Virus record (IMG/VR): IMGVR_UViG_3300042562_000746
Span: 1-64,000 of that record
Strand: one strand, 5' to 3'
Source: a virus
DNA length: 64,000 nt
The notes under the pieces were generated by a model. It was not told where the DNA came from and made no database searches. It saw only the letters and a program-made list of their open reading frames with translations. The translations under genes were made by a program, and so were the position numbers. This document shows positions 28,457-60,601 of the stretch, piece after piece. Numbering within the stretch: the first letter of the stretch is position 1; each line of letters opens with the position of its first letter.

Positions 28457-29095
28457 TTATTTAAACTTCAACCCAGTCAATTTTTCTATATCAACTAATT
28501 CAACTTTGTTATTATATATTCCATCGGGTTTAGATTGGTCATTCTCAAATAAGAAAGCCATCCATTCATTTGATTTTTTATAGTAAACCACTTTCCAACA
28601 TTGTTTTGGAACTGATACTTTACCTATCTTTTTTATCTCTCCCACATTACCTGCCCATATATGAACCGAATCATCTTTCACTGCCCACTCTCTAGTCATT
28701 ACTTCTAATGATTTCCAATCTCCTGCATTTAGTCTATGTGTTTGTGCCGACATATTACTCATATAGAACGATTCAATTTGAACACCTGCCGTTTGACATT
28801 GATTGGATGCTGCAGGACTCATATGTCCTCTATCATATCCACTACCTACATAGTCTGCTTTAATATCGGTTTCAAGTATTGCTTGTGGGTCTGGCTGAAA
28901 TGCATCTCTTCTAGGTAATGGATTTGGACAACCAACTTTTGCTTTAGTTTCCCACCACTCTACCATTACTGGATATTTTTTTGACTTACTAAAATGTGAT
29001 GTATAGTTTGTATGTTTCAAAATAACTACATCTTGTGCTCTACCACCTATTGCAAAAAATACACAAATCGTAACAAGTAATACTAATTTTTTCAT
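28457..29095 (-). CDS. Exported DNA/RNA non-specific endonuclease (DRGH family)
   Basis: 212 residues. MKKLVLLVTICVFFAIGGRAQ is a clear signal peptide. The catalytic motif YDRGHMSPAA is at 87-96 (histidine 91), followed by SNQCQTAGVQIESFYMSNMS, where an asparagine ligates the metal, as in Serratia-type beta-beta-alpha-metal nucleases. Export means it acts in the periplasm or outside, for example clearing DNA, salvaging nucleotides or excluding other phages' DNA. It is preceded by A/T-rich TATATTTATATG rather than the 20-nt promoter. Confidence 0.87.
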   Translation of the reverse strand: MKKLVLLVTICVFFAIGGRAQDVVILKHTNYTSHFSKSKKYPVMVEWWETKAKVGCPNPLPRRDAFQPDPQAILETDIKADYVGSGYDRGHMSPAASNQCQTAGVQIESFYMSNMSAQTHRLNAGDWKSLEVMTREWAVKDDSVHIWAGNVGEIKKIGKVSVPKQCWKVVYYKKSNEWMAFLFENDQSKPDGIYNNKVELVDIEKLTGLKFK

Positions 29096-45197: not shown

Positions 45198-46799
45198 TTA
45201 TAATACCATTCTAGAGCCTATCTGAAAATTACTCAAAAATGCGGAATATGCTTTAGTATTACCACTCATTTTATAGTTAAACGCAAATCCAAATCTCTTA
45301 CTAATTTTATAATCAAATGCGGCGCCTAATAAAAATCCCATATGTCTATTTACCGTTGTTTCACCACTTACACTATTATAACTAATTGGTGAGAACATTG
45401 TAAATACTTGTGGTGATATAGTGAGTTTTTTTGAATACTGATAAGGTTTAGTCCAAAATACAATTGCCGATGTTGCCATATTGTATTCAAACCCACCCGT
45501 CTCATCGTTTTTAAGGAATAGATTGATTACACCCACATTATAACCATATGTTCCTTTTTTTGGTGTTGGTTTAATATAGGTATATCCTAATAAGTTCATA
45601 TAGTTTCCGGCTAAATATGCAAATGCCGTTCCGTATGAGTGTATTGCATCTAATTGTCCATCTTTGGTTAATCCCATTTTTGTTATACCACCGGTCATTA
45701 CAATAGAACTCAAATTACTATTTATCATCAATCCTGCACTATAACTTATATCACCTGCTAAAGATGATTTACTAAGTCCCATTGATATAGCTGCTAAATA
45801 CTGACCTGCACTTGCTTCTGCAACAGTTACATCTGATGCTAATAATGTTGGGTTTGTTACTTCTTGTTTTTTCTTTTTCTCTTCCTCTTTTTTCTTTTCT
45901 TCTTCTTTCTTTTTCTCTTCCTCTTTTTTGGTTTCTTCTTTCTTTTCTTCCTCTTTTTTAGCTTCTTCTTTTTTCTCCTCAGTCTTTTTTTCTTCTGATT
46001 TCTTTTCTTCGGTTTTAGCTTCTTCTTTCTTTTCTTCGGTTTTAGTTTCCGTTTTCTTTTCTTCCGCTTTTTGTTCAGCAGGTTTTGCTTCTGCGGGTTT
46101 TGCTTCTGCGGGTTTTGCTTCCGTTGATGATGAACTACCACCCGATGAACTACTACCACTTGCTGGTGGTGGAGATGATGAACCACCACTTGCTGGCGGT
46201 GGTGTATTGGTAGGAGGTGGTGCTGATGCCGGTGGCGGCGGTGGAACATTTACGGGTGGCGGTGGTGGCGGTGCTATGTTTATTGGTGGTGGTGTTGCTG
46301 CATTTGCTGCCGCTGAACTCGCTGCTCCACTTGCGGCGGATGATGCGGCACCACTGGCCGCTCCACTCGCTGCATTTGCTGCGGCTTTTGCTGCGGCATC
46401 TGCGGCTGCTTTTGCGGCTGCATCTGCGGCTGCTTTTGCTGCGGCATCTGCGGCTGCTTTTGCGGCGGCATCTGCTGCGGCTCTCGCTGCGGCATCTGCG
46501 GCTGCTCTTGCGGCGGCTTCTTGTGCTAATCTTATGTTATCGTTTACCGGACAAGGTGTTGCAAATACACTATTTACCCATTGTTGAAATGAACCATTAT
46601 TCATATCTGCTAATGTTACAATTTTAGATTTACCTCTAATAATTGCAACGGTTTGATTTTGTCCGAATGGAATTACGACAACATATACTTTGTTATCACA
46701 TGGGTCAATGTAAGTTTGGGTAATAGTTTGCCCTTCTGCTTTAAATGCAGTTAAGGTAGTAACAATTAATAATAAAATAATTACTAACCATTTCTTCAT
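45198..46799 (-). CDS. Exported outer-membrane barrel protein with Ala-, Pro- and Lys/Glu-rich spacer
   Basis: 533 residues. Signal peptide to GQT (LLLIVTTLTAFKAEGQ). Residues about 95-155 are (AAADAAAK)n helical repeats, then a proline-rich run (PPPPPPVNVPPPPP), a serine/glycine stretch, and a Lys/Glu-rich coiled stretch up to about residue 305. The last 230 residues are antiparallel strands ending SNFQIGSRMVL, an OmpA-like or channel-type beta-barrel; its end resembles the barrel at 53732-54625. The spacer recalls TolA/TonB-type periplasm-spanning segments. It may anchor to cell wall or protrude outward. Confidence 0.8.
   Translation of the reverse strand: MKKWLVIILLLIVTTLTAFKAEGQTITQTYIDPCDNKVYVVVIPFGQNQTVAIIRGKSKIVTLADMNNGSFQQWVNSVFATPCPVNDNIRLAQEAAARAAADAAARAAADAAAKAAADAAAKAAADAAAKAAADAAAKAAANAASGAASGAASSAASGAASSAAANAATPPPINIAPPPPPPVNVPPPPPASAPPPTNTPPPASGGSSSPPPASGSSSSGGSSSSTEAKPAEAKPAEAKPAEQKAEEKKTETKTEEKKEEAKTEEKKSEEKKTEEKKEEAKKEEEKKEETKKEEEKKKEEEKKKEEEKKKKQEVTNPTLLASDVTVAEASAGQYLAAISMGLSKSSLAGDISYSAGLMINSNLSSIVMTGGITKMGLTKDGQLDAIHSYGTAFAYLAGNYMNLLGYTYIKPTPKKGTYGYNVGVINLFLKNDETGGFEYNMATSAIVFWTKPYQYSKKLTISPQVFTMFSPISYNSVSGETTVNRHMGFLLGAAFDYKISKRFGFAFNYKMSGNTKAYSAFLSNFQIGSRMVL
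45868..46080. repeat. Lys/Glu-coding low-complexity tract
   Basis: Repeated GAA/AAA codons (minus strand) code for (EEKK)n in the 45198-46799 protein. The tract opens spurious reading frames on both strands. Confidence 0.85.
46370..46515. repeat. Ala-rich tandem repeat DNA
   Basis: About 24-bp units coding AAADAAAK (minus strand) are repeated several times; plus-strand bases read as tandem gcggcatctgcggctgctttt-like units. Such tandem repeats change copy number by slippage, so the spacer length of the protein may vary between phage isolates. Confidence 0.85.
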
Positions 46800-47653
46800 T
46801 ACTTATTGTTCAGTCCGATTGAAATTTGAGAATACCCTCTGATTGGGTCTGTGTCTATTTTTAATGTAACAAATTTGAAATCTCTTATTATACCAATTTT
46901 AAATGTAGTAAAGTTTGCATTTGATTTTGGAAATGAGATACCACCTAAGTCATCTTTACCTTGCCATCTGATAATTTCATGTCCAAATCCTATCATACCA
47001 TGTATTCCTAATTTACCAATTCTTTTACCACCACCAACATAGAAAGTTGACTCTTTTTTCCAATCTTCTTTACTAAGTGGAAAGTCAACATTGTTAATTT
47101 GACCATATGGATAATAGCTGTTTTGGTCTATTGCATAAGTCATTACATAATCCACAATAAAATATCCTTTATTACCACCAATCAACCCCCAAAATGCAGT
47201 TTGTTTATTGTTAGTGTGTCCTATACCTGCTGAAAATAATACAGGTGTTGAAGCAATCGTATCTCTCCTACCATTTTCATATATTCTAACTACACTTCTT
47301 TGTCTCCACCCAAAATCATCATACCAAATATAAGGATATGGTTGGTAATATCCATATATTCCATATTGTAAACCATACGGATTGTATGTTGTAGGTCTAT
47401 ATCTTCTTACTAATGGTTGTCCTTCAAAATTATCACCTGGTCTAATTGGTGCAGTTTGTGTTCTCCAACTACTCACATTATTTTGTTGTGGTATGGATGG
47501 TTGAACTCTTGTTTGAGTTGATTGTGATGTTTGTGATGATGCTGGAACACTTCCACCAGTTTGTCTCCAAGTTGATACTTGTGCATTTAACATAATTGCA
47601 CATATTAAGACTAACAATATTGTTAATCCACCAATCAATACTAGTTTTTTCAT
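46799..47653 (-). CDS. Exported proline/glutamine-rich protein with C-terminal beta domain
   Basis: 284 residues. An N-terminal signal or anchor (LVLIGGLTILLVLICAIMLN) is followed by a Ser/Gln/Pro-rich linker to about residue 80 and a tyrosine-rich segment (TYNPYGLQYGIYGYYQPYPY). The C-terminal 160 residues are strands with glycine (TAFWGLIGGNKGYFIVDYVM; GKRIGKLGIHGMIGFGH), a small barrel. The start overlaps the FeoA-domain gene (ATGA). A likely partner of the 45198 barrel. A ribosome-binding AGGAG precedes it. Confidence 0.74.
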   Translation of the reverse strand: MKKLVLIGGLTILLVLICAIMLNAQVSTWRQTGGSVPASSQTSQSTQTRVQPSIPQQNNVSSWRTQTAPIRPGDNFEGQPLVRRYRPTTYNPYGLQYGIYGYYQPYPYIWYDDFGWRQRSVVRIYENGRRDTIASTPVLFSAGIGHTNNKQTAFWGLIGGNKGYFIVDYVMTYAIDQNSYYPYGQINNVDFPLSKEDWKKESTFYVGGGKRIGKLGIHGMIGFGHEIIRWQGKDDLGGISFPKSNANFTTFKIGIIRDFKFVTLKIDTDPIRGYSQISIGLNNK

Positions 47654-47886
47654 ATTATCTCCTTTTTACATATTCTATCCAATTCCTCTGGTCTTAATGC
47701 GAATGTTTGTTCTTGATTTCCATTTTCTGAAATCATGTTAACTATCCATAATCCCAAACGTTTTTCTTCAATCTCTATTTTTTGCCCTTGTATAAATCCC
47801 ATATCCATTAATCGTAATCTTAAACATGGTGTACATTTTTCACAGGGGTCATTTGCAGGTACATCTATGACATCGTAGGTTTTCAC
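47650..47886 (-). CDS. FeoA-domain protein
   Basis: 78 residues, GTG start at 47886 (TAGTG overlap with the preceding small gene). LRLRLMDMGFIQGQKIEIEE and LGLWIVNMISENGNQEQTFA, then LRPEELDRI, match the FeoA SH3-like domain, which regulates the ferrous-iron permease FeoB. A CEKCTPC cysteine cluster precedes it. No FeoB is visible in the window. It could modulate host FeoB, act as a stand-alone SH3-like module, or regulate transcription as in DtxR-type C-terminal domains. Confidence 0.82.
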   Translation of the reverse strand: MKTYDVIDVPANDPCEKCTPCLRLRLMDMGFIQGQKIEIEEKRLGLWIVNMISENGNQEQTFALRPEELDRICKKEII

Positions 47887-47993
47887 TACTTCAATTTTTG
47901 TAAGATAGCTAAGTTCTTTTTTATTTGTTCTGCTGTTTTAACTCCAGAACGTTTACTTCGCATTGCTCTTTTTTTCTTTGGTGCTGTTCCCAT
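47886..47993 (-). CDS. Small basic protein (35 aa)
   Basis: 35 codons (MGTAPKKKRAMRSKRSGVKT...) coupled to the FeoA-domain gene by a TAGTG overlap, which supports that gene's GTG start. Strongly basic; it may bind nucleic acid. Confidence 0.6.
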   Translation of the reverse strand: MGTAPKKKRAMRSKRSGVKTAEQIKKNLAILQKLK

Positions 47994-48004
47994 TTGTATA
48001 AATT

Positions 48005-48724
48005 TTATTTTGTGTAAATACCTTTTTTAATCATTCTACCCAATATTCTTGCACACGCAATATCCAATGCCTTTTTAGTTGCTATTGAAATTGTTGATTG
48101 ATTGAATTTAACTTCATCAATCGTTGCATCTGAAAGAAAAGTTAATTCTCTTTTAGTTGTTGCTTCTCCTAATCCACTTGCTGCAAATATCTCACCTGTT
48201 TCTGCATCGGTAAAACGAACTTGTAAACCAATACGAGTAACCACCATATTTTTAACACCATTACTTAAATTTACTGTCTCATCTTCTGATACTGAATAAT
48301 CATAACATTCTATCTCTACGAAATAATGTGCTAATCTAATTTTACCCCTACCATCGAGCTTATCTTGCGATATACCGCTCTGCGATGCTTGAAACTGCTT
48401 AACCATGCGATTTTTAATTTCAGTTTTATCTTCTGTAAATGTAAATCTATTAAGATTACTAAGATACTCCAATGTAATATTAGCCACACCGAGACCGACA
48501 CGTTTTTCTTTAAGTTCCGGATATTGTTCGTACATTTCTTCACTTATACCACATTTTAAAATTTGAATTGGAATGGTAGGCCCGTCATAATCCATATATT
48601 GGCTTATGTCCACTTTGGTTTCAAAACTTGCTTTGTATTGTTCTGTTTTAGTTGAACCTATATTCTGACTACTTGCAACAAGACTTACCAAACAAAAACT
48701 TAATAAAACGAATAAACTTTTCAT
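48005..48724 (-). CDS. CsgG-like exported protein
   Basis: 239 residues with a signal peptide (LFVLLSFCLVSLVASSQ). GLGVANITLEYLSNLNRFTF, then AHYFVEIECYDYSVSEDETV and LQVRFTDAETGEIFAASGLG, follow the CsgG pattern (TxxLxxxGRF, aLxi... TGEI). CsgG forms the outer-membrane pore for curli and related fibres; here no lipobox cysteine is evident, so lipidation is doubtful. A phage CsgG homologue could help release or secretion; no CsgA-like subunit is visible nearby. Confidence 0.72.
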   Translation of the reverse strand: MKSLFVLLSFCLVSLVASSQNIGSTKTEQYKASFETKVDISQYMDYDGPTIPIQILKCGISEEMYEQYPELKEKRVGLGVANITLEYLSNLNRFTFTEDKTEIKNRMVKQFQASQSGISQDKLDGRGKIRLAHYFVEIECYDYSVSEDETVNLSNGVKNMVVTRIGLQVRFTDAETGEIFAASGLGEATTKRELTFLSDATIDEVKFNQSTISIATKKALDIACARILGRMIKKGIYTK

Positions 48725-48740
48725 ACATTCTTACTTTTTA

Positions 48741-48750
48741 TATAAATATA
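48741..48750 (-). promoter_or_regulatory. Possible TATATTTATA-type promoter before the CsgG-like gene
   Basis: TATATTTATA 17 nt upstream of the start at 48724 resembles the -7 box but no TTTG is at the -33 distance. Similar sequences precede 29095, 34950, 37879 and 59508. A phage-modified polymerase might use it, but this is only a pattern. Confidence 0.35.
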
Positions 48751-48765
48751 GAATTTTATCATTAT

Positions 48766-48798
48766 AAATAAAAAACCCCCACCGATTAAGTGGGGGTT
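48766..48798 (-). terminator. Intrinsic terminator after the beta-helix lipoprotein gene
   Basis: Perfect minus-strand AACCCCCAC/GTGGGGGTT stem with a 7-nt loop (48798-48774) followed by TTTTATT. It marks the end of the unit coding the TonB receptor and lipoprotein. Confidence 0.9.
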
Positions 48799-48815
48799 AT
48801 CATATTATTTTGTTA

Positions 48816-50018
48816 TTAATTACCTTTTGTTGGAAATCTAGTCCAACCACTAATCCATATTGGTTTGGATAATATTTCCATTTCAGCTTTTGTATAAGAT
48901 ACTTGTTTGTTACCTTCTGATAAAGCTTTTGCCTTCATATCAGCTGCAGTAAATACAATTGATGTTGATTTGAAATTTAATAATGGGTCATACGCCTGAA
49001 CCTCATTGTTTTGGAATTTACTTACACCATCTTTATATGCTTGTGCAGTTTCATTACTTTCCATTGAGAATCCCCCTTTTTGATATCCAACAATCTTTGA
49101 GTTAGTAATTGTGAATTGAGTTGCTCTCCTCCATCTTAAACCTAAATTATGGTTTGCTAATGAAGCCACATCAAATGGTCCAACTAAAATCATATTATCT
49201 AATTTAGGATGTGTAAATGGTTGTGCAGATGTACCTGTTCCATCATTATCACATTCTACACCATTTCCAGCATCACCAGCATCTACGAATTGTGGGTCTC
49301 TCTTTGAAACTGAATACGATACTGAACCTCTATATCCAAAATCAAAATCGTAATCATCATCCGCAGTTGCATAAGCGTATAAGTTTTTTGCATTTACAGT
49401 TCCACCAAAAAATTCAAATGCATCATCGTTAGCGTAAATAGTTTGAACATTCTCAATGATTGTCCCACTACCAACTCCACCTAATGTTAGTGCGTTGATT
49501 TCAGAGTTTGGCATTGCTGCGATACCAGCGTATTCAATTCTTACATATTTTAGAACACCACTATTATCCAAATCGTTAGTACCACCATAAGGTCTACCAA
49601 TACCACCTTCAATAGTTGGTTCGGAAGTTCTATTAGTAGTTGCTCTACCTAACAATACAACACCACCCCAATCACCAGGTGTTCTTTCACCAACTGCTTT
49701 ACCTGATGTAAATACAATTGGTTTTGTAGAAGTTCCCTCTGCAATTAGTTGTGCACCTCTTTCAATAATTAGTGCACCTTTCTCTGCAATATCAGAAACA
49801 ATTGTTGTACCCGGTTGGATAATAAGTTTAGCACCATCGGTTACATAAACATATCCTTTTAATGTCCATGTCTTGTCCGATGTTAAAGTTGTTGTTGTGT
49901 TAATGTTTCCACTTAATGTTGTTGTAGTTGGAACATTGATAGGCGTTACATCGCCACCTAATTCTTTTTTGCAGCTGAATAATCCTAATACCAAAATAAG
50001 CCCTAATAATTTTTTCAT
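48816..50018 (-). CDS. Surface lipoprotein with parallel beta-helix
   Basis: 400 residues. MKKLLGLILVLGLFSCKKE is a lipoprotein signal (lipobox LFSC). The body has repeated beta-helix turns (LIIQPGTTIVSDIAEKGALI, then IERGAQLIAEGTSTKPIVFT, GDWGGVVLLGRATTN, GGVGSGTIIENVQTIYANDD). The ending CGWTRFPTKGN-type tail carries no sorting domain. It directly follows, and overlaps, the TonB-dependent receptor, echoing transporter/surface-lipoprotein pairs of Bacteroidota. It probably sits over or beside the receptor at the cell surface; the ligand is unknown. Confidence 0.87.
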   Translation of the reverse strand: MKKLLGLILVLGLFSCKKELGGDVTPINVPTTTTLSGNINTTTTLTSDKTWTLKGYVYVTDGAKLIIQPGTTIVSDIAEKGALIIERGAQLIAEGTSTKPIVFTSGKAVGERTPGDWGGVVLLGRATTNRTSEPTIEGGIGRPYGGTNDLDNSGVLKYVRIEYAGIAAMPNSEINALTLGGVGSGTIIENVQTIYANDDAFEFFGGTVNAKNLYAYATADDDYDFDFGYRGSVSYSVSKRDPQFVDAGDAGNGVECDNDGTGTSAQPFTHPKLDNMILVGPFDVASLANHNLGLRWRRATQFTITNSKIVGYQKGGFSMESNETAQAYKDGVSKFQNNEVQAYDPLLNFKSTSIVFTAADMKAKALSEGNKQVSYTKAEMEILSKPIWISGWTRFPTKGN

Positions 50019-52267
50019 AGATTCAAATTTAATGTTAAAGAAATTGTTCGTTCGTTGTTTGTTTTTATCAAATTTCGGTTTTGTAACTTTTGATAATAGA
50101 TTGATGGTTGACCTAACACATCACCTATTGCCAATTTTATTTCACCTTTATTTAATTTATGTAAAAGGGTAACATCCAATACATCTCTGCTGTTTTCAAA
50201 AATGTCTGGATAACCCTGAAATCCTATTGCTGATATTCTATCTCCTACTCTATTGTAAGTTATGTTAAGTGTGTTTTTCTTTTTATGTATATTCACGCCA
50301 CCATTTAATACATAGTTTGATTGTCCTTGTAATTGTCTTTTAACTCCTTTCACGTTTACTTCCGAATTCATTACCGAAGCGTTTGTATAAAAATCAAACC
50401 ATTCAGTTACCTTTTTACGAAATTCTAATTCAACACCATAAAGATATGCGTTATCAGGATTTGAGTAAGTTAATAATAAGTTTGATGGAACTGAACCATC
50501 AGCTACTACTTGCTCAATTGGTTTTATGAAGTTCTTACCAAATAGGGATACTGAAATATTCTCTCCTACTTTTGGATATAACTCCCATTTCAAATCTAAA
50601 TTATATATGTCAGATTTTTCCAATTTAGGATTACCCAATAATTGTGCGTTTCTTACAAAATCATAATAAGCAAAATTAGCTACTTCTCTAAACTCCGGCC
50701 TTGCTAATGTTTTACTTAATGAAAATCTATACTTCGTTTTTTCTAAATTGTATGAAAGATTTAATGATGGTAATACATCCAAATACTCTCTATTAACTTT
50801 AACTTTACTTCCACTAAAATCTGCGGTAGATACATCAAATAAATTATATTCGGTTCTAACACCCGTATTTAATTTCCATAAACCAAATTCTTTATCCAAC
50901 ATTACATACCCACTACCTAAATCAAAATCAGCAGTGTATTTGTCTGTGTTGTTTGTTATCTCGTCTAACATATCAGTTGAAAGATAACGAAATATTCTTG
51001 CGTTAAATCCTCTAATTTTTTTTAAGTAACCACCACCAATCTTAATATCACCAAATGATTTGTTAATGTTACCACTAAAAGAGTTTTCATCCATCACACT
51101 CCAAAAACGATATGTATCTCTCCATGCGGTAGCATAGGGTTCGTTTACTCCCAATGATTTTGTAATTGGATTAACTCTATAATCAGGTTGCTCTCTAAAG
51201 ATAAAATTGTATCCTAAATTAAAATCCCAAGTTTTAAGTTTACCATCAAATTGAGAATTAACTACAATGTTGTTTATATGGTTAGATGAATTACTATGAA
51301 CATTTTGAACATTATCATAGTTCTCACCATTTCTATTCATATAAGAATCATCAGCTTGATAGTTCACTAATGTTTTCCAACTATATCGGTTCTCACCTAA
51401 ATAAGTTAAATTCAATAAACCATTTGCGGAAAATCTTTTTGTATATAATGTATCTTTATAATCGTATGCTAATTCAGTTGAGGATTGATAATCTATTCTA
51501 TCTATGTAATTTAATCCATATGAGTTTCTAATAGTTGAACTGAATAAAGCATTGAATTTATTTTTCTTTACACCAAATGATAAACCACCATTTAAGTTTG
51601 GAGATGAATTAAATCCATCTACTATTGGATTACTAAATTGCTTTGTATATAATCTTTTATCACCATTACTACTAACTCTATATCCGTATGTAGATGGGAA
51701 TGTGGAAGGGAATTCAGTAGCTTGAACTAACTTAAAATCCTTTAAAGTTGAAACCAAACCCCAACCACTTCCCAATGAGATATTGAAGAAATTATCGGAA
51801 ACTTCTTTTGTTGTAATTTGTACCAAGCCACCACTCCAATCTCCTGGTTGATTTGCTGATGCTGATTTAGCAACTATAATATTATCAATTAAAGCTGTTG
51901 GAATTATATCAAATGAAAATGCTCTCCTATCAGGTTCAGTTGATGGTAGGAGTGTTTTGTTTAGGATAGCCGAATTGTATCTATCTGCTAATCCTCTTAC
52001 TAATACAAACTTATCGTTTTGTATTGTTACACCACTTACTCTTTTAAGTGCATCACCTACATTTCTGTCAGGTGTTTTTTTAATAAATTCTATGGATACA
52101 CCATCAGAAACTACCGATGAATTTCGGATAGTTGTTATTACTGCTACTTCGGTAATTTTCTTACCCGCTGAACGAACTGTAACTGTTGTTAGTTTTTTTG
52201 AAAATAGAGTGTCTTGTGAAAATGATATAAATGGTAAGGATAAAAGGACAAATAAAAATACTCTCAT
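50015..52267 (-). CDS. TonB-dependent outer-membrane receptor
   Basis: About 750 residues. I start at the Met at 52267 (MRVFLFVLLSLPFISFSQ), a good signal peptide; starts 6 or 27 bases upstream also exist. The plug domain follows (VGDALKRVSGVTIQNDKFVL, VRGLADRYNSAILNKTLLPS, GGLVQITTKE), then a long 22-strand-type barrel ending ERTISLTLNLNL. It lacks the carboxypeptidase-regulatory N-terminal domain of SusC/RagA types. Such receptors import iron chelates, vitamins or sugars using TonB. A full-length phage-encoded one is exceptional. The leader carries a hairpin over its start (52255-52312). Confidence 0.9.
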   Translation of the reverse strand: MRVFLFVLLSLPFISFSQDTLFSKKLTTVTVRSAGKKITEVAVITTIRNSSVVSDGVSIEFIKKTPDRNVGDALKRVSGVTIQNDKFVLVRGLADRYNSAILNKTLLPSTEPDRRAFSFDIIPTALIDNIIVAKSASANQPGDWSGGLVQITTKEVSDNFFNISLGSGWGLVSTLKDFKLVQATEFPSTFPSTYGYRVSSNGDKRLYTKQFSNPIVDGFNSSPNLNGGLSFGVKKNKFNALFSSTIRNSYGLNYIDRIDYQSSTELAYDYKDTLYTKRFSANGLLNLTYLGENRYSWKTLVNYQADDSYMNRNGENYDNVQNVHSNSSNHINNIVVNSQFDGKLKTWDFNLGYNFIFREQPDYRVNPITKSLGVNEPYATAWRDTYRFWSVMDENSFSGNINKSFGDIKIGGGYLKKIRGFNARIFRYLSTDMLDEITNNTDKYTADFDLGSGYVMLDKEFGLWKLNTGVRTEYNLFDVSTADFSGSKVKVNREYLDVLPSLNLSYNLEKTKYRFSLSKTLARPEFREVANFAYYDFVRNAQLLGNPKLEKSDIYNLDLKWELYPKVGENISVSLFGKNFIKPIEQVVADGSVPSNLLLTYSNPDNAYLYGVELEFRKKVTEWFDFYTNASVMNSEVNVKGVKRQLQGQSNYVLNGGVNIHKKKNTLNITYNRVGDRISAIGFQGYPDIFENSRDVLDVTLLHKLNKGEIKLAIGDVLGQPSIYYQKLQNRNLIKTNNERTISLTLNLNL

Positions 52268-52312
52268 AAACATATTAGGGTTTGTTTTCCCCAATAACTA
52301 TGAGAGTATTTT
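52255..52312 (-). terminator. Long hairpin overlapping the TonB-receptor start codon
   Basis: A perfect 14-bp inverted repeat: AAAATACTCTCATA (RNA 5' arm, 52312-52299) and TATGAGAGTATTTT (3' arm, 52268-52255), with an inner TTGGGG/CCCTAA stem in the loop, then TATTTG. The ATG at 52267 lies in the 3' arm. It may terminate transcription from 52349 or hide the receptor's start codon, or both (attenuation). Confidence 0.7.
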
Positions 52313-52348
52313 AATTAAATATTAAGTATTAGATTAACTTTATGTTAA

Positions 52349-52612
52349 CTATCCTAATTCTTCTTCCTTCTTAGGTTCTTCTGCTTTTTTACTAGTAAAT
52401 TTATCCAAAGTATCTGCACCCATACCGATAGCAGTAATTACCATTACGGCATTTACTAATTCAGCGGCTGGTTTGAAATGGTCTTCGGAAAATGAATTAG
52501 CCAACATTGTACCACATAAGAATAACGCACCTACGAATGCGATTACTGGTTTTACGGAAATTGAACCCCTTTCATCTTTGAAAATTTCAATTGCCCACTC
52601 TTTAAATGTCAT
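52349..52612 (-). CDS. Holin-like membrane protein (87 aa)
   Basis: 87 residues. SISVKPVIAFVGALFLCGTM (first helix), then VNAVMVITAIGMGADTLDKF (second), with a charged tail (KKAEEPKKEEELG). The pattern of two membrane helices and the GADTLDKFT-type motif resembles phage holins of marine T4-type phages. It may control lysis timing, and the position near the envelope island fits. A GGGAG ribosome-binding site precedes the start. Confidence 0.68.
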   Translation of the reverse strand: MTFKEWAIEIFKDERGSISVKPVIAFVGALFLCGTMLANSFSEDHFKPAAELVNAVMVITAIGMGADTLDKFTSKKAEEPKKEEELG

Positions 52613-52662
52613 AATTACTCCCTTTATTTTTTTGTTATGATTACTTTTTATTTAATACCCTA

Positions 52663-53016
52663 TTACCATTTTGGTGCATCTTCCTTAAACTCATCACCTT
52701 CTTTCTTTTTAGGTTTTGGTGCTGCTGCTGCAGGAGTTGCATTTTTTTCTTTGATAATTACAGTTTTAGTTCCACCACCTGCTGCTTGTTGTTGAGCCGG
52801 TATGTTAATGTTGATTGATTGTGGTTGAACCTGCTTATCACTATCTTTTGGTTTTTGTAAGTAGGACATTAAGAATGTACCACCACCCACTACCAATGTA
52901 CTAACTGTACCTATAAGAGTTTTTTTCAAACCACTCATTGTACCATCATTATGTTTTTCGTTTTTAGCCATTGCAGCTTCTTCCGATGTCTTTGTTGTTT
53001 TTGTTGCCTTTGCCAT
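52663..53016 (-). CDS. Single-pass membrane protein (117 aa)
   Basis: 117 residues: a polar N-terminus, one membrane helix (TLIGTVSTLVVGGGTFLMSY) and a proline/glutamine/alanine-rich tail with a lysine/glutamate end. Topology suits a spanin or periplasmic tether. Function unknown. Confidence 0.66.
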   Translation of the reverse strand: MAKATKTTKTSEEAAMAKNEKHNDGTMSGLKKTLIGTVSTLVVGGGTFLMSYLQKPKDSDKQVQPQSININIPAQQQAAGGGTKTVIIKEKNATPAAAAPKPKKKEGDEFKEDAPKW

Positions 53017-53017
53017 A

Positions 53018-53386
53018 TTATATTTTATTAAAGTCTGTTATTCCTAATTGATTTCCTTTATCATCAAACAATGCAATTCTATATGCAGATGATGGTAATG
53101 CTGATGTATATACTTTTAATATATTGTCACCAACTTTTACTTCACTTGTTGATTTAGATACTACTCTATTTGAGATATCGAATATTTTTATTGTTACCGT
53201 TTGTGCTGTTTCACTTTTAACATTCATTGCTACTTGTGATGTTACAAAGGGTGATTCTAATTTAATACCACTTACACTATTAATTGCCAATTCAGATGGT
53301 ACTTGATTTATTATAGTTGGTATATCTACCTTTCTGCATCCGATAAATGTTATAGCTACCAATGCTATTAAAATTGTTTTTTTCAT
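53018..53386 (-). CDS. Lipoprotein with sorting-domain-like beta fold (122 aa)
   Basis: 122 residues. MKKTILIALVAITFIGCRKV is a lipoprotein signal (lipobox FIGC). The rest is a single beta sandwich: TAQTVTIKIFDISNRVVSKS, then KVYTSALPSSAYRIALFDDK, very like the type 9 secretion-system C-terminal (Por) sorting domain fold. Here it is free standing. Probably a surface or periplasmic component with 53388-53732. Confidence 0.74.
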   Translation of the reverse strand: MKKTILIALVAITFIGCRKVDIPTIINQVPSELAINSVSGIKLESPFVTSQVAMNVKSETAQTVTIKIFDISNRVVSKSTSEVKVGDNILKVYTSALPSSAYRIALFDDKGNQLGITDFNKI

Positions 53387-53387
53387 T

Positions 53388-53732
53388 TTACTTTACTATT
53401 ATTGTTGTTTTACCTACTTTATTTTTACTCTCATCTTCCAATAACAAATATAAATATTTAATTTCTAGTGTATTAGTGTATATTTTCTTTTTATTTATTC
53501 CAATTTGTCCTTTAAATCTTTCTCTTGTCAAAACTTGGTTGGTTGTACTATCACCTATTGTTAGAGTATATACACCATTTTTAGTTAAATCAAATTGTAT
53601 TTCTTGTCCGTTTTCAACACTACTTTGTGCAACACTAAATATTTTTACATTTTCAGGAGGTGGAGTTGGTATAACTTCTACCTTCTTACATGCGGCTAAA
53701 CTTAAACACAATATGAATAATATTTTTTTCAT
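53388..53732 (-). CDS. Small lipoprotein (114 aa)
   Basis: 114 residues. MKKILFILCLSLAACKKVEV is a lipoprotein signal (lipobox LAAC). The following domain is strand rich (SVENGQEIQFDLTKNGVYTL, IKYLYLLLEDESKNKVGKTT), again a small beta sandwich. Overlaps the barrel gene by one base. Function unknown. Confidence 0.74.
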   Translation of the reverse strand: MKKILFILCLSLAACKKVEVIPTPPPENVKIFSVAQSSVENGQEIQFDLTKNGVYTLTIGDSTTNQVLTRERFKGQIGINKKKIYTNTLEIKYLYLLLEDESKNKVGKTTIIVK

Positions 53733-54625
53733 TAAAATTGAAAGTTTGTTCCTACCATAAATAGAATTGGGTTACTCTTTTTATATCCAACCGATTCACT
53801 CAATTTATCCCAAGTTGTGTTATATCTGATGTTAGTATTCAATACAAATCTTTTAGTTATTTTCCAATCAATAGATGTACCATAATATAAGTCCAAATTG
53901 AAATCATCTACATACGCTAAATCCGATTCAGTACCATCTTTAAATACTTTATAAACATCACTCATTGCAAATATTTGTGGTGATACGTTTACTCTTTTTG
54001 TTTTTAGTGTATACGTGTACATCACCATACCTCTATAAGTAAGTTCAGATGATGCTGGCATTTGTGGATATATTAAATCTTTAAAATCACCGTTTTCGTC
54101 CACAGTATATTTTCCTTCCCATTCACCTTGATAAGTTCCCCAAAATGATTTTGATGCTGTTAAACTATAACCAAATGTCCCATATTTTTTTGTTCTAAAC
54201 ACATCTATAAACGATAGTGTAATATCTTTTTGGAAATCAAAATCAGTTGAGTAAAATGTTTGGATTGTAGTTGTTCTTTTTTCTGTGTTTCTACTAAGAC
54301 CATAACCCACACCATAATAATTCCATATAGGATTTATTGATGCTGCAAATGAATGACCCCATTGACCATTTAAAGACGATTTATGGTATCCTAAATTAAG
54401 TGTAGTTGATATTTGCTTTCCAATAATTCCTACTGAAAGGTTTGATGATGAAAGAACATCTTTTGAAAAATTAACATAGGATTGTAATATACCCACATCG
54501 TTCCAATCATCACTTTCTCCAAATAATTCTTTTGGTGATAATTGTAATGTATCGGGTTTTTGTATCTGTGCGTTTGTAACAAATGTTGTCAAAATTAGTG
54601 ACAAAACTAATAGTATTTTTTTCAT
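53732..54625 (-). CDS. Outer-membrane beta-barrel protein
   Basis: 297 residues from MKKILLVLSLILTTFVTNAQ, a signal peptide ending NAQ. The rest consists of alternating strands (SVGIIGKQISTTLNLGYHKS, KRVNVSPQIFAMSDVYKVF, KRFVLNTNIRYNT) ending NPILFMVGTNFQF with terminal aromatic F, the outer-membrane barrel signature. The end resembles the 45198-46799 barrel. It could be a phage-coded porin-like or adhesin scaffold. Confidence 0.78.
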   Translation of the reverse strand: MKKILLVLSLILTTFVTNAQIQKPDTLQLSPKELFGESDDWNDVGILQSYVNFSKDVLSSSNLSVGIIGKQISTTLNLGYHKSSLNGQWGHSFAASINPIWNYYGVGYGLSRNTEKRTTTIQTFYSTDFDFQKDITLSFIDVFRTKKYGTFGYSLTASKSFWGTYQGEWEGKYTVDENGDFKDLIYPQMPASSELTYRGMVMYTYTLKTKRVNVSPQIFAMSDVYKVFKDGTESDLAYVDDFNLDLYYGTSIDWKITKRFVLNTNIRYNTTWDKLSESVGYKKSNPILFMVGTNFQF

Positions 54626-54629
54626 TAGT

Positions 54630-54890
54630 TTAATCATTTAAGTATTGTTTACAAACATCACAACCACATTTTTCTCTTACCTTTTTCCAATCAATATCTC
54701 CACAAACATCTTCAAATCTATGATTTATTTCACGATGGTCGTGAATGTACCTTATTGCTTTATCGGTAAGTCCCATCCACATATCACATCTTGAAGCGTT
54801 GCCATCACCACCAGAACTATACATTCTTACCTCATTTTTATTACAATCTGAACAATGAAATATTATTCCGTCTCCGTTTTTCTTTGGCAT
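54630..54890 (-). CDS. Cysteine-rich zinc-binding protein (86 aa)
   Basis: 86 residues. FHCSDCNKNEVRMYSSGGDG, SRCDMWMG, VCGDIDWKKVREKCGCDVCK: two or more CxxC pairs, likely two zinc sites. No signal peptide, so cytoplasmic, unlike its neighbours. A clear AGGAG ribosome-binding site precedes it. Function unknown. Confidence 0.7.
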   Translation of the reverse strand: MPKKNGDGIIFHCSDCNKNEVRMYSSGGDGNASRCDMWMGLTDKAIRYIHDHREINHRFEDVCGDIDWKKVREKCGCDVCKQYLND

Positions 54891-54903
54891 AATTTTCTCC
54901 TTT

Positions 54904-57198
54904 TTATTTCATTCTAATTTTTAATGTTGTTCCTGCTTTATTAACTGCATCCATAAATCCAACCGAAACCAATCCCAATATATTATCCAATTTTGTTTTA
55001 GTTGTAAATGTAATTTTATATTCCGTTGTATTATTCAAAACACCACCATCGGTAATTAATGAACCAAAATTTACATATGTTCCTTTATCCGTTCCGTAGT
55101 TAGTTGGTGAACCTATTGTTTTATAAGATACATTCATAAACTTTAACAAACTATTATCATAATTTAAGTGTAATTGAGTTCCTACTAATTCTTGTTGTAG
55201 TGGGTCTATTGTAATATATGCATAAACACTATCACCCATTATTTCAGTTATGATTGATGCGTTGATTTCGTTTGATATTGATAAACTCATTGTTTTAATA
55301 CCCATACTTCTAACCGAATTGCTTGCGGTTGTATTAATCACAGGTATTGCTGAATGTGAAAGGTTTACATCACCTCTCCAACTTACACTAACATTATATG
55401 TGTTATTAAGTGTTCCAGTATTTAAACTGAATGGATATAAACTTCTCGTTGAATTGAATTGTGTATTCCAATTTGATTTTGTAATCCCATCATATTCCGA
55501 TTTACCATATAGTTTCATCAAATATGTTAGGGTTGAATATTGTGTAAGTGATTCTACACCTGTTAAGTGTTGTAATAATTTATATGTATCTGCTTCATTA
55601 AATAAACCATCACCCGTTACATCTGCGTTCATATACTGAATACCATATCCAAATTCATTACCTGTTTCATTGCCAAATAATCCACGATTTGATAATTCTT
55701 TAAATGCCAAATATACATCTGCAACACCAACGATACTACTATACAATGTGTTTAAATCCGTTTGATTAGTATATGATAAATCAATTCCATGTTGTTTGAA
55801 TGCCAATATTGGTGAGAAAGTAAATTCGGCTCTAGTTCCATACCAACCATCTTGTAATCTTAATTGAGCTTGAAATGTTGATGAAGTTATTTTGGTTGTT
55901 AAATTACCAGGCATTACATATGTTTTCCACCAACCACTTACACTATAAACACTAACAGGCCCATCGTATATATCAAATAATTTAATTGATGTTATATCGT
56001 TTGGAGATACTCCTGTTCCATCAAATTCTCTTTCATCTATTAATAATTGATGCCCACCTAAATTTGCATCATATGGATTTATTATTGCCCATTCAACTTG
56101 TCCGGCCGCCGTTGTTGCTTTAATACCACCACCACTCACCTTTAAGGTATCTAAATCATTTGTAATATCCGTTTTACCTAATCCACTTATTGCTCTCAAT
56201 GTATTAGTTGTTACACCCCATACATTGTTTACATATGTGTTTGCTTTTGCTGAAAATTTTGTTTCATCTACATTACCACCAAAGTCAAAATTGAATCGTG
56301 CAGTTAGGACTTCTCCGTTTGAGTGAGTTACTGAATTTGTATAAAACTCCGTAAAGGTTGCATCATCGGGGTTAGACCAAGTTCCATATTCAATTACATA
56401 AGCACAACTAAAATGATTTGGTAAGTCATTCCATTGAGAACCACCACCCCATTTAGTTACTGCGTAATCTTCATTACCACTATTATTTGGTTCACCACCT
56501 GCCCAATTATTATATTGACCAGGAATGTTTCCGTTTGTTTGTCCGTTATTTATTTTGATAAGAGTTCCCTTTTCAGGTCCTGCATCTATCGTCCATCTAG
56601 CTTCCTCTACTTCATCGGTTAGTGCAAACCAAATATTACCTTGAGGAACATTATTAAAAATAAAAGCATCTTCATCGGCAGAAGTGATTGTTACTAAATA
56701 TCCGGTCTGTCCTTTGAATGTAGTTAATAACGATGCTGCTCTTGCATTTGTGTAAGTTGCACCGGTTGTTATTGGTCTATAAAAGTGTCCATTTACTCCA
56801 TTGTAATAATATCCCGTTGGATTTATAGTTGTGGCTACTGATAAAGCAATATTACCCCTTACTGAACCTGTATTTACTTTTAGGGATGCTAATGCCGTAT
56901 TAATATCAGCCATCGTTCCTGTAACCACTAATCGTGTTTTGTTACCACTTAAAGTGAATCCACTTGCGGCAGTTAAACCCGTTGTTGTGTTTAATACGAA
57001 TGTTGTACCTGATGGTGGATTAACTAAACTGATTGATGCTAATAGTGTTGCAGTAGAACTAAATCCACTCAATACAAATCCACTTGCATCTTGTCCGGTA
57101 GTAGATTGTAAAAAAGATTTAGAGTCCGGAGCAGATACACTCTGTCCGAACCCTAAAAATGATATTAAAAGAAATAATGTAACTAATAGATGTTTCAT
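54904..57198 (-). CDS. Exported C-type-lectin-like, dockerin-like and cohesin-like protein
   Basis: 764 residues. Signal peptide (LLVTLFLLISFLGFGQ). Residues about 140-275 fit a C-type lectin fold (NARAASLLTTFKGQTGYLVT; NIWFALTDEVEEARWTID; NWAGGEPNNSGNEDYAVTKW; WNDLPNHFSCAYVIEY), with EPNN and WND calcium/sugar positions. About residues 520-545 have a dockerin-like loop (NADVTGDGLFNEADTYKLLQ). The C-terminus (GTQLHLNYDNSLLKFMNVSY) is cohesin-like, and a WRGDVNLSHS motif is shared with 57198-58853. A surface adhesin or sugar-binding scaffold. Confidence 0.8.
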   Translation of the reverse strand: MKHLLVTLFLLISFLGFGQSVSAPDSKSFLQSTTGQDASGFVLSGFSSTATLLASISLVNPPSGTTFVLNTTTGLTAASGFTLSGNKTRLVVTGTMADINTALASLKVNTGSVRGNIALSVATTINPTGYYYNGVNGHFYRPITTGATYTNARAASLLTTFKGQTGYLVTITSADEDAFIFNNVPQGNIWFALTDEVEEARWTIDAGPEKGTLIKINNGQTNGNIPGQYNNWAGGEPNNSGNEDYAVTKWGGGSQWNDLPNHFSCAYVIEYGTWSNPDDATFTEFYTNSVTHSNGEVLTARFNFDFGGNVDETKFSAKANTYVNNVWGVTTNTLRAISGLGKTDITNDLDTLKVSGGGIKATTAAGQVEWAIINPYDANLGGHQLLIDEREFDGTGVSPNDITSIKLFDIYDGPVSVYSVSGWWKTYVMPGNLTTKITSSTFQAQLRLQDGWYGTRAEFTFSPILAFKQHGIDLSYTNQTDLNTLYSSIVGVADVYLAFKELSNRGLFGNETGNEFGYGIQYMNADVTGDGLFNEADTYKLLQHLTGVESLTQYSTLTYLMKLYGKSEYDGITKSNWNTQFNSTRSLYPFSLNTGTLNNTYNVSVSWRGDVNLSHSAIPVINTTASNSVRSMGIKTMSLSISNEINASIITEIMGDSVYAYITIDPLQQELVGTQLHLNYDNSLLKFMNVSYKTIGSPTNYGTDKGTYVNFGSLITDGGVLNNTTEYKITFTTKTKLDNILGLVSVGFMDAVNKAGTTLKIRMK

Positions 57199-58853
57199 TA
57201 TTCTACTATTAGATTAATTTTTTTACCACTACCATCAACTGCGTCTGCTAGGACTGTATAGAATAAACCTGCCGTATTTGCTAATGTTTCTTTTGGAGTA
57301 AATGTTAATCTATATGGTGTACCTGTTTTAATTCTACCCGTTTTAACCTGGTCCATTGAACCAAATGTTAATCTGCCGGCGTTATTTGTTGAGAAATTTA
57401 CAACATTTGCACCCGCATCAAAAGCAACATTATCAAAAGTTAATTTAGTATTATCATATTGTAAAATTACTTCTAAACCCGCCAATCCTTCTTTTGTTAA
57501 AGTTCCTGTTAATACAACTTTACCATTTGTAATTGTAGAGTTCAAACTTAATTTTGCAGTTTCTATTACTGATGTGTAACTCATATTTGCAACTGAAAAT
57601 GATTTTATTACATTTTCATTACCGATTGAATTTGTATAATTACCCGTACTCACTCTACTTGCAATTGTGTCAGGATGAGATGAATGTGACCAATCCAAAT
57701 CTCCACCCCATGCAAATACTGCATCTACCGCTTGTGTTGAGTTAGTTACATATACTCTATTTTTAGGAGTACCATCTAACCAACTTTGATTTAATAAACC
57801 ACTATACCATCTTACCGATGTTGATGTTGATTTTGGTATCATTGCAATTGAGTCTGCATTTATACCCATTACATGTGCAAATATATTATATGAATCACTT
57901 TCACTAAATGTACTTTTACCTATTGTAATTAAACCAACTTTCTTTTCTAATACAGGTCTTGTAAAGTATGTCCCTGCACCAGTAATATCAGTTTGTGAAA
58001 CACCTAAAAACGCTTTATATGCATCCGATACGGTCACAATGTTATTCATCCAACTCTTTTGAAATGCAGCTCCTACAAATACACCCAAACTATCACCAAC
58101 TTTAATACCTGATGTAAATGTTGCTTCACCACTTGCATCCAATACTTTTTGTTGAATTGGTTGTTGTGTCCAATCTATATCACCACTACCATCTGATTTC
58201 AATTTCATCAATTGTATGCTATGGTCTGTGATTGAGTATCCAGATGGGAATAAAACTCTAACTTTGAATTGAGATGTATTACCACTTACATTTGATAAAG
58301 ACATTGTACCTGGGTCAGTTGTAATTGGAGTAATGTATGCACTTGCTGCATCTACTGAATATGCTAAATCCAATTTATGTATGTTGGTATATTCACCCAA
58401 ATCTTTGATTACATATTTTTGAGTTGCAATATCTCCGTTGATTGATGCATCGGTTCTTTGTATAGTCAATTGTCCTACATTCCAATCCGAATTAGCTGTG
58501 TAAGACCAAGGAGATGCTAGATATTGTGCATATAAATTTGTAGCAATTATGTTATTTGCGGTACTTGCTGTAAATCTATAAGATGTCCAACCGGTATAAT
58601 ATGTTTGAACCGATGTTCCTTGTGAGAATGTGGTTGAAACATATGCCAATGCTTTATTGTTGAATTGATATCTCAACCAAAAATATCTTGGTGTAGTTGT
58701 ACCTCTTGCAACTGTATATTTTACTGAAATTGTGTCACCAACCTTTAAACCTGTTGTAGGTGTTACTGATTGGTTGATTGTTAATTGTGCGTTTACTGTC
58801 AATGTTAATAGGGATAGTATAATTATCCCTAACGTCATAAAGAATTTCTTCAT
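57198..58853 (-). CDS. Exported protein with cohesin-like C-terminus (paralogue of 54904-57198)
   Basis: Start taken at MKKFFMTLGIIILSLLTLTV (58853), just after the upstream stop; 551 residues with signal peptide. N-terminal beta domains (KVGDTISVKYTVARGTTTPR) lead to a dockerin-like but degenerate segment (GKSTFSESDSYNIFAHVMGI) and WGGDLDWSHSS, then a cohesin-like end (LEVILQYDNTKLTFDNVAFD; RLTFTPKETLANTAGL). The parallel order with 54904-57198 shows duplication. Self-assembly through cohesin-dockerin-like contacts is an inference. Confidence 0.76.
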   Translation of the reverse strand: MKKFFMTLGIIILSLLTLTVNAQLTINQSVTPTTGLKVGDTISVKYTVARGTTTPRYFWLRYQFNNKALAYVSTTFSQGTSVQTYYTGWTSYRFTASTANNIIATNLYAQYLASPWSYTANSDWNVGQLTIQRTDASINGDIATQKYVIKDLGEYTNIHKLDLAYSVDAASAYITPITTDPGTMSLSNVSGNTSQFKVRVLFPSGYSITDHSIQLMKLKSDGSGDIDWTQQPIQQKVLDASGEATFTSGIKVGDSLGVFVGAAFQKSWMNNIVTVSDAYKAFLGVSQTDITGAGTYFTRPVLEKKVGLITIGKSTFSESDSYNIFAHVMGINADSIAMIPKSTSTSVRWYSGLLNQSWLDGTPKNRVYVTNSTQAVDAVFAWGGDLDWSHSSHPDTIASRVSTGNYTNSIGNENVIKSFSVANMSYTSVIETAKLSLNSTITNGKVVLTGTLTKEGLAGLEVILQYDNTKLTFDNVAFDAGANVVNFSTNNAGRLTFGSMDQVKTGRIKTGTPYRLTFTPKETLANTAGLFYTVLADAVDGSGKKINLIVE

Positions 58854-58854
58854 T

Positions 58855-59508
58855 TTATTTTTCCTCAAATAGTTTGGTGATTAGTTTGTCACAACCTTTT
58901 TTAAGTGCATTACTTAAACTTGTTTGATTAAAACCACCACCTTCACCGATAATCAATGTACTCATTGATATTTCTGAGGAGGACTCTTCTACTATAACTA
59001 CTTTGTCTTTCTTTCCTTCGGATTTAAGAATGCCACGTAAACGAATTACAACTTCTTCTTCTCCACTATGAAAAACCGATATGTTCTTTTTTGTTGTAAG
59101 AACATCTAAAAATATAATTTGAACTGATACTTTGTTTGGTGCTACCGAAGATAGATTATATCCTTTATCTTGTAGATATTCTTCTAAAATATTCTTAACA
59201 CCAAATTCTAATTTACGATTTCCTGCTAACTTACCGATTTTTACTTCGTTTGTTACTGATTCAATTGTTACTTGCTTATCGGCATCATACCAAATGTTTT
59301 CAGGTGAATTTTTGAATGTACCGTCAATTCTCCATTCAATCCAATTTGCAACATCTCTTGTTATTTCAGTTTTACCTGCTAATTCCAAGTAGGTCATAGT
59401 AGCTGTGAATAACAACGCACATACAACCCATACAAGCGCTAGACTTATAAATCCTAGCGCGATTTTTTCGCCAATAGTTTGGCTTAAGTTTAATAACTTC
59501 GCTTTCAT
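58855..59508 (-). CDS. Membrane-anchored periplasmic protein (217 aa)
   Basis: 217 residues with one N-terminal membrane helix (KIALGFISLALVWVVCALLF). The remainder is an alpha/beta domain (VKIGKLAGNRKLEFGVKNIL; KVSVQIIFLDVLTTKKNISV; EEVVIRLRGILKSEGKKDKV), reminiscent of CsgG/LpoB-like nucleoside-free beta-alpha folds. It may couple the inner membrane to the CsgG-like and barrel proteins. Function not known. First gene of the envelope block. Confidence 0.68.
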   Translation of the reverse strand: MKAKLLNLSQTIGEKIALGFISLALVWVVCALLFTATMTYLELAGKTEITRDVANWIEWRIDGTFKNSPENIWYDADKQVTIESVTNEVKIGKLAGNRKLEFGVKNILEEYLQDKGYNLSSVAPNKVSVQIIFLDVLTTKKNISVFHSGEEEVVIRLRGILKSEGKKDKVVIVEESSSEISMSTLIIGEGGGFNQTSLSNALKKGCDKLITKLFEEK

Positions 59509-60292: not shown

Positions 60293-60601
60293 TTATCTGA
60301 TTACCATTAATAAATCCATTTCTCTACATAAGAAATAATCTTTATCTCCTAATTTAATTTTTTGTACACTCATTTCACCCATTGGTAATAATACTTTATC
60401 ACCTGGTTTTACTGTCATTGGAATTTTAGCCCCACTATGTGTGTAAACACCATCTCCGGTTGAAACTACAACTGCTATTTTATTATCACCCGTCTTAACT
60501 GAATCTGGGATAATTATTCCACCAATTGTTTTTTCTTTTGATTCAATTGTTACTAATACTCTGTCGCCTAACGGCTTTGCTAATTCAAAATTCTCTGTCA
60601 T
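60293..60601 (-). CDS. groES: GroES-type co-chaperonin
   Basis: 102 residues. KPLGDRVLVTIESKEKTIGG IIIPDSVKTGDN and GDKVLLPMGEMSVQKIKLGD follow true Cpn10, including the mobile-loop GGIIIPD that binds GroEL. T4 uses an unrelated-looking gp31 for major-capsid folding; a GroES-like version is likely the functional counterpart here. No GroEL is visible in the window, so it would use the host's. Confidence 0.9.
   Translation of the reverse strand: MTENFELAKPLGDRVLVTIESKEKTIGGIIIPDSVKTGDNKIAVVVSTGDGVYTHSGAKIPMTVKPGDKVLLPMGEMSVQKIKLGDKDYFLCREMDLLMVIR

Follow-up and report, generated by a model that had tools for sequence, protein, structure and literature searches.

A two-gene receptor and lipoprotein cassette of Bacteroidota phages, predicted to take up phosphorus under the control of host PhoB

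The receptor/lipoprotein cassette

We analyzed the first 64,000 bases (hereafter, the window) of a linear virus record of 126,250 bases, IMGVR_UViG_3300042562_000746 in IMG/VR. It carries a two-gene cassette (48816-52348) in which a TonB-dependent receptor overlaps a beta-helix lipoprotein, itself located within a larger block of genes for exported proteins (45198-59508). Genes on the contig include those for the sheath and tube of a contractile tail, for a DnaB-type helicase, and for a UvsX recombinase, and a clamp-loader gene adjoins the exported block; by this gene content, it is a fragment of a T4-like phage. It is probably incomplete, as no convincing terminase was found on the 126-kb contig. 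The cassette is composed of the following features:

52309-52348, minus strand: promoter region; two direct repeats resembling Pho boxes, with a period of 11 bases (TTAACATAAAGTTAATC at 52332-52348, TTAATATTTAATTAAAA at 52309-52325)
50015-52267, minus strand: TonB-dependent receptor (Plug and OMP_b-brl_3 domains; PF07715, PF14905) with a signal peptide
48816-50018, minus strand: outer-membrane lipoprotein, predicted right-handed beta-helix, with a lipobox ending at Cys16

The receptor, already named as such in a first-pass annotation made from the sequence alone, is borne out by its matches to PF14905 and PF07715. It probably starts at the ATG at 52267 (a TTG lies nine codons upstream, at 52294), and its stop codon is overlapped by the start codon of the lipoprotein gene. 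It is 62-93% identical across 74 viral loci, with a ratio of nonsynonymous to synonymous substitution rates (dN/dS) of roughly 0.09-0.17 and conserved plug and barrel positions; at the sequence level, it is under purifying selection. Cellular relatives measure ~930-960 residues and have an N-terminal regulatory domain, whereas viral ones measure ~827 or ~750. The CarbopepD_reg_2 domain (pf13715) seen at the N-terminus of cellular relatives is missing from the window's receptor; roughly half of the viral receptors instead carry an extension at this end.

The lipoprotein is 71-91% identical across 71 viral loci and has no Pfam match. AlphaFold2 models it as a beta-helix (predicted local distance difference test, pLDDT, 92), the nearest folds of this model being pectin-lyase-type beta-helices at weak E-values, and a search against viral structures returned generic beta-helices only. 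Membership of the SusCD or PusCD systems was rejected, since the partner is this predicted beta-helix and no SusD-type protein (pf07980/pf14322) is present.

Distribution and exchange of the cassette

Scans of viral contigs returned 120 relatives with the receptor as query, of which 80 were kept, and 108 with the lipoprotein, the two sets overlapping. The pair is adjacent in all 71 viral loci holding both genes, as well as in 77 of the 83 loci that are cellular or of other origin. The genes flanking the viral pair fall into 29 upstream and 31 downstream neighbor families (at locus L058, genes for the tail sheath and tail tube lie close to it), and the pair is also carried by phages that do not have the exported block. 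A tail sheath or terminase match was obtained on 22 of the 46 larger carrier contigs; the other 24, without either marker, may be fragments. When the window is compared to three other loci (L005, L006, and L012), the cassette DNA is 85-94% identical and the flanks ~65-81%, the high-identity piece extending in L005 over the gene at 48005-48724. Such a high-identity cassette between diverged flanks indicates that the pair has been exchanged as a unit among different phages. Several IMG/VR contigs (L240, L241, L251, L269-L271, and others) end inside the cassette, which is consistent with a sequence common to co-occurring phage populations breaking the assembly.

In a receptor tree built with a quick method, the 64 viral receptors form a single clade against 83 cellular or other sequences, with a long stem and a Shimodaira-Hasegawa-like approximate likelihood ratio test (SH-aLRT) value of 100. 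The best cellular relative among the matches listed, from Paracnuella, is 43% identical; no closer cellular receptor was found in ~700 sampled Bacteroidota genomes, and searching the viral contigs with cellular receptors retrieved nothing above 44%. According to this phylogeny, the viral receptors are a virus-specific branch of the cellular pair. The tree requires about four changes of N-terminal state, one of which (L009) is a contig-end artifact.

Five records match the receptor in a collection of annotated phages. Four are contigs from human feces, some of them marked unverified, and are probably cellular. The fifth is the uncultured 634-kb phage LR745206 (L086), in which a receptor likewise adjoins a related lipoprotein. 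Its pair is distant (27%/40% identical), in reverse gene order, with an N-terminal extension kept on the receptor, and outside the viral clade, which suggests a separate acquisition.

A Pho-box-like repeat and a phosphate context

The direct repeat TTAAYA-N5-TTAAYA is found upstream of viral receptors, mostly 60-100 bases before the start. With a threshold of at least 11 matches out of its 12 positions, it occurs in 32 of 61 viral receptor promoters versus 12 of 295 other upstream regions from the same loci, and in 2% of shuffled sequences, the period of 11 being the strongest. Among cellular receptor promoters, 56 of 75 contain the same repeat, as do 15 of 20 promoters of pst-type pstS genes (20 genomes) and 5 of 20 DUF47 promoters; PhoX occurred too seldom among the genomes sampled to allow a promoter comparison. 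On the whole contig, six intergenic sites of this quality are listed. A scan of one Bacteroidota genome for three half-sites was rejected as a means of defining a regulon, as it gave four matches, including the receptor promoter, and three in the backward control. The shape of the repeat agrees with the PhoP/PhoB boxes of other bacteria. The cyanobacterial Pho-box consensus is PyTTAAPyPyT/A (cited in PMC10976474).

A second line of evidence comes from the surroundings of the cellular pair. Genes of the Pit (PF01384) or DUF47 (PF01865) families lie within ~10 kb of it in 25 of 80 loci, and PhoR/PhoB-like genes are near it in nine further ones, bringing the phosphate-linked loci to 34 of 80; for a gene with one or two copies per genome, ~1% would be expected by chance, as estimated from typical genome sizes. 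In Flavobacterium johnsoniae, the phosphate-starvation-induced receptor Fjoh_0545 (pf07715, pf13715, pf14905) adjoins the lipoprotein FII Fjoh_0546 within the phoBR operon, and the Fjoh_0545/Fjoh_0546 pair is strongly induced by phosphate depletion (PMC8115612). The three domains of Fjoh_0545 are all found in our cellular relative L101. In this F. johnsoniae PUSIV pair, a Plug and OMP_b-brl_3 receptor is likewise followed by a lipoprotein, of the pectin-lyase-like superfamily (PMC8115612), and both that pair and the window's are linked to phosphate, the former through starvation and the latter through its cellular context. The window's pair differs in that it is phage-borne, belongs to a separate virus-only clade, has a receptor without pf13715, and has no phosphate enzymes beside it.

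A predicted phosphorus-uptake system

From these observations, we consider it probable that the pair constitutes a virus-specific outer-membrane system for phosphorus uptake, controlled by the PhoB of the host. Upon infection of a phosphate-starved host, activated host PhoB would bind the 11-base-period repeats upstream of the pair, and the promoter so bound would direct transcription of both genes. Receptor and lipoprotein would then insert into the outer membrane, where host TonB would power the import of phosphate or of a phosphorus-containing compound, and the imported phosphorus would supply phage DNA synthesis. In this scheme, we infer the binding of PhoB, the assembly in the outer membrane, the ligand, and the benefit to the phage. 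Judged only from the cellular context, the ligand is most likely phosphorus-related. Nutrient uptake had been put forward in the first-pass annotation as one role of the whole block; this part of the proposal can be retained for the receptor/lipoprotein pair only, the nutrient being most likely phosphorus given the linkage to phosphate genes and the promoter repeat.

Several points weigh against this interpretation. With respect to the repeat, around half of the viral promoters score below 11, a period of 8, although a distant second, still gives 13 of 61, and the repeat also occurs at 58 of 475 other genes in the cellular loci; moreover, the promoters being compared partly share a common ancestry. 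The pst-type pstS set was picked post hoc by a GSDTEVNLAV-like motif, after most first-ranked PF12849 hits had turned out to be without the repeat; those hits are mostly not pst-type, and apart from L206 and L211, which coincide with two of the 20, the upstream regions of the chosen set had not been viewed at selection. With respect to the phosphate context, 46 of the 80 cellular loci have no phosphate gene in the stretch examined, some of these contigs being short, and the likeness to Fjoh_0545/Fjoh_0546 is one of architecture, not of direct sequence comparison. Finally, published work cautions that Pho boxes predicted in phages are not reliable unless binding is assayed (PMC10976474).

Phage phosphate genes under host control are already known, as the phosphate-acquisition genes (pstS) of cyanophages are controlled by the host PhoBR (PMC10976474 and references therein). 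The window's pair shares with this system the combination of a phage phosphorus-uptake gene and a Pho box for the host regulator. Yet, it belongs to phages of Bacteroidota and not of cyanobacteria, it would act by TonB-dependent transport at the outer membrane and not as a periplasmic binding protein, and both its PhoB control and its phosphorus transport are predicted only. What would be new is thus the outer-membrane import step in Bacteroidota phages: the TonB-dependent form, the virus-only clade, and the cassette exchange were not found in the open-access literature, searched by word matches and with most subscription journals outside its reach.

The block of exported proteins around the cassette

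The open reading frames named in the first-pass annotation are all present at the positions given there, on the minus strand. In addition to the cassette, the block contains:

45198-46799, minus strand: Ala/Pro/Lys-rich exported protein with a barrel-like C-terminal part, a weak counterpart of immuto gp018 (see below)
46799-47653, minus strand: exported protein, possible small barrel, 38-63% identical in 8 viral loci
47650-47886, minus strand: FeoA-domain protein (PF04023, E 4e-5), not exported
48005-48724, minus strand: exported protein, a well-conserved block member, 70-85% identical in 22 loci and 53% to immuto gp017
52349-52612, minus strand: small membrane protein with a membrane segment, holin-like by shape only
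52663-53016, minus strand: small protein containing a single hydrophobic stretch, 39-60% identical in 17 loci and corresponding to immuto gp016
53018-53386, minus strand: lipoprotein with weak similarity to a type IX secretion system (T9SS) sorting domain (PF18962, E 9e-4, below cut-off)
53388-53732, minus strand: small lipoprotein by the lipobox rule
53732-54637, minus strand: exported probable outer-membrane barrel, 80-92% identical in 7 viral loci
54630-54890, minus strand: small protein, not exported by the export rule
54904-57198, minus strand: exported protein that shows a weak C-type lectin domain and corresponds in part to immuto gp013
57198-58868, minus strand: exported protein with a cohesin-fold domain at its end (structure match)
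58855-59508, minus strand: membrane protein anchored N-terminally, weak match to immuto gp019

The clustering of export signals described in the first-pass annotation stands: by a crude signal-peptide/lipobox rule, 11 of the 15 block genes score as exported versus 5 of 134 other minus-strand genes on the whole 126-kb contig (Fisher p = 4e-10; 0 of 20,000 permutations reached this enrichment). Two further block genes, at 52349 and 52663, either contain a membrane segment or look membrane-like. These signals make it plausible that the products are sent to the host envelope, as had been proposed.

Individual assignments fared unevenly. The three lipoproteins are those at 48816-50018, 53018-53386, and 53388-53732. 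The proposed cohesin fold is supported by a structure match at the C-terminus of 57198-58868 (cohesins, target TM up to 0.68, in a model of low overall confidence); 54904-57198 has a marginal C-type lectin domain. Neither suggested barrel matches a curated family, and we keep 46799-47653 as a possible and 53732-54637 as a probable one. The CsgG identity of 48005-48724 was rejected, as nothing was found in Pfam or in a PDB profile search, and the holin-like label of 52349-52612 has no family support. Most block genes other than the receptor/lipoprotein pair have no explained function.

A counterpart of the block exists in the cultured Flavobacterium myovirus immuto (Immutovirus immuto, NC_055915), which, judged by its tail sheath (~42% identical), is one of the closest annotated relatives. 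Most proteins of its gp012-gp019 cluster start with a signal peptide, and as in the window, nuclease, lectin-type, cohesin, gp017-family, and barrel-like proteins are grouped together. The cluster matches the window's exported nuclease, 54904-57198, 52663-53016, 48005-48724 (53%), and 45198-46799, and more weakly 53732-54637 and 58855-59508. Unlike the window, it is devoid of the pair, no receptor of the cassette type being found in immuto by tblastn. The order of the block is largely kept in sister metagenomic phages, where contigs with the pair also bear tail sheath or terminase genes, and a 5.7-kb copy, 100% identical, occurs in another assembly. Base composition shows no break at the block edges. 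The block is thus a property of the phage, a host chimera being excluded as far as sequence allows; it is conserved in this T4-like lineage, and the cassette was probably inserted into it.

Another difference is that the immuto cohesin protein, gp015 (L239:12691-13422), combines its cohesin domain with a clear T9SS type A sorting domain, above the Pfam cut-off. This suggests a phage product exported via the type IX system of the host, and hints that host T9SS may deliver some of the block products to the cell surface.

Whether the block acts as a whole is another matter. The first-pass annotation saw in it a single coordinated program of outer-membrane rebuilding, in line with the strong clustering of export signals and with a block that recurs in sister phages and in immuto. 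However, the pair is absent from the immuto block, travels to phages without a block, and is exchanged independently of most of it; within the block, two tandem starvation-box-like sites lie directly upstream of the pair only, and no common regulatory signal was found for the whole block. A coordinated rebuild is therefore unsupported, and we regard it as unlikely.

Outside the block, family searches confirmed the proposed FG-GAP lipoprotein and the exported DNA/RNA non-specific endonuclease (28457-29095, PF01223), which has a counterpart in the immuto block. Since extracellular nucleases are likewise induced in F. johnsoniae when phosphate is depleted (PMC8115612), this enzyme may, by analogy, be part of the same phosphorus economy as the receptor pair. 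Elsewhere, the contig carries a phage Cpn10 (GroES-like) gene beside the clamp-loader genes (60293-60601), an AAA ATPase (20616-21848) whose best PHROG annotation is porphyrin biosynthesis, CobS-like, and 19 tRNA genes with a transfer-messenger RNA gene on the minus strand (L001:7813-12250, ~71.3-75.7 kb of the phage contig).

Alternative roles for the pair

TonB-dependent receptors are common phage receptors, and the pair could be a device for receptor exclusion or replacement, by which the phage's own receptor occupies TonB or the surface and bars competing phages that enter through a related host receptor. The many gene contexts of the pair would suit such a traded trait, but exclusion predicts neither a phosphate-starvation box nor a conserved surface lipoprotein partner, and the receptor is under purifying selection, with conserved plug and barrel positions; exclusion seems improbable to us. 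We give equally little credit to the import of another nutrient, such as iron or a glycan, with the repeat serving a different OmpR-family regulator. TonB receptors do handle mostly iron or glycans, the beta-helix of the lipoprotein resembles polysaccharide enzymes, and a FeoA-domain gene is nearby; against this stand the same repeat before pst-type pstS in 15 of 20 genomes, the Pit, DUF47, and PhoBR-like genes adjoining cellular pairs, and the reported induction of the comparable F. johnsoniae pair under phosphate depletion (PMC8115612). Lastly, that block or pair is host DNA, through misassembly or wrong viral classification, is very improbable: TonB receptors are typically cellular genes and several contigs break inside the cassette, but we rejected this reading on the grounds of synteny (including the counterpart block in cultured immuto), of phage hallmark genes (tail sheath or terminase on sister contigs with the pair), and of the receptor tree, in which viral and cellular sequences do not mix.

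Implications

On balance, we favor the view that Bacteroidota phages own virus-specific, TonB-powered phosphorus importers that are switched on by host PhoB, traded as a two-gene cassette, and whose N-terminal regulatory domain has repeatedly been changed or lost. Bacteroidota are major degraders of organic matter. If this view is correct, lytic phages would furnish the cell surface of starving hosts with an active transporter, phage infection would be linked to phosphorus cycling, and the cellular pair would become testable through its compact viral version. That the pair is swapped among so many phages suggests that viruses may equip hungry hosts to scavenge phosphorus.

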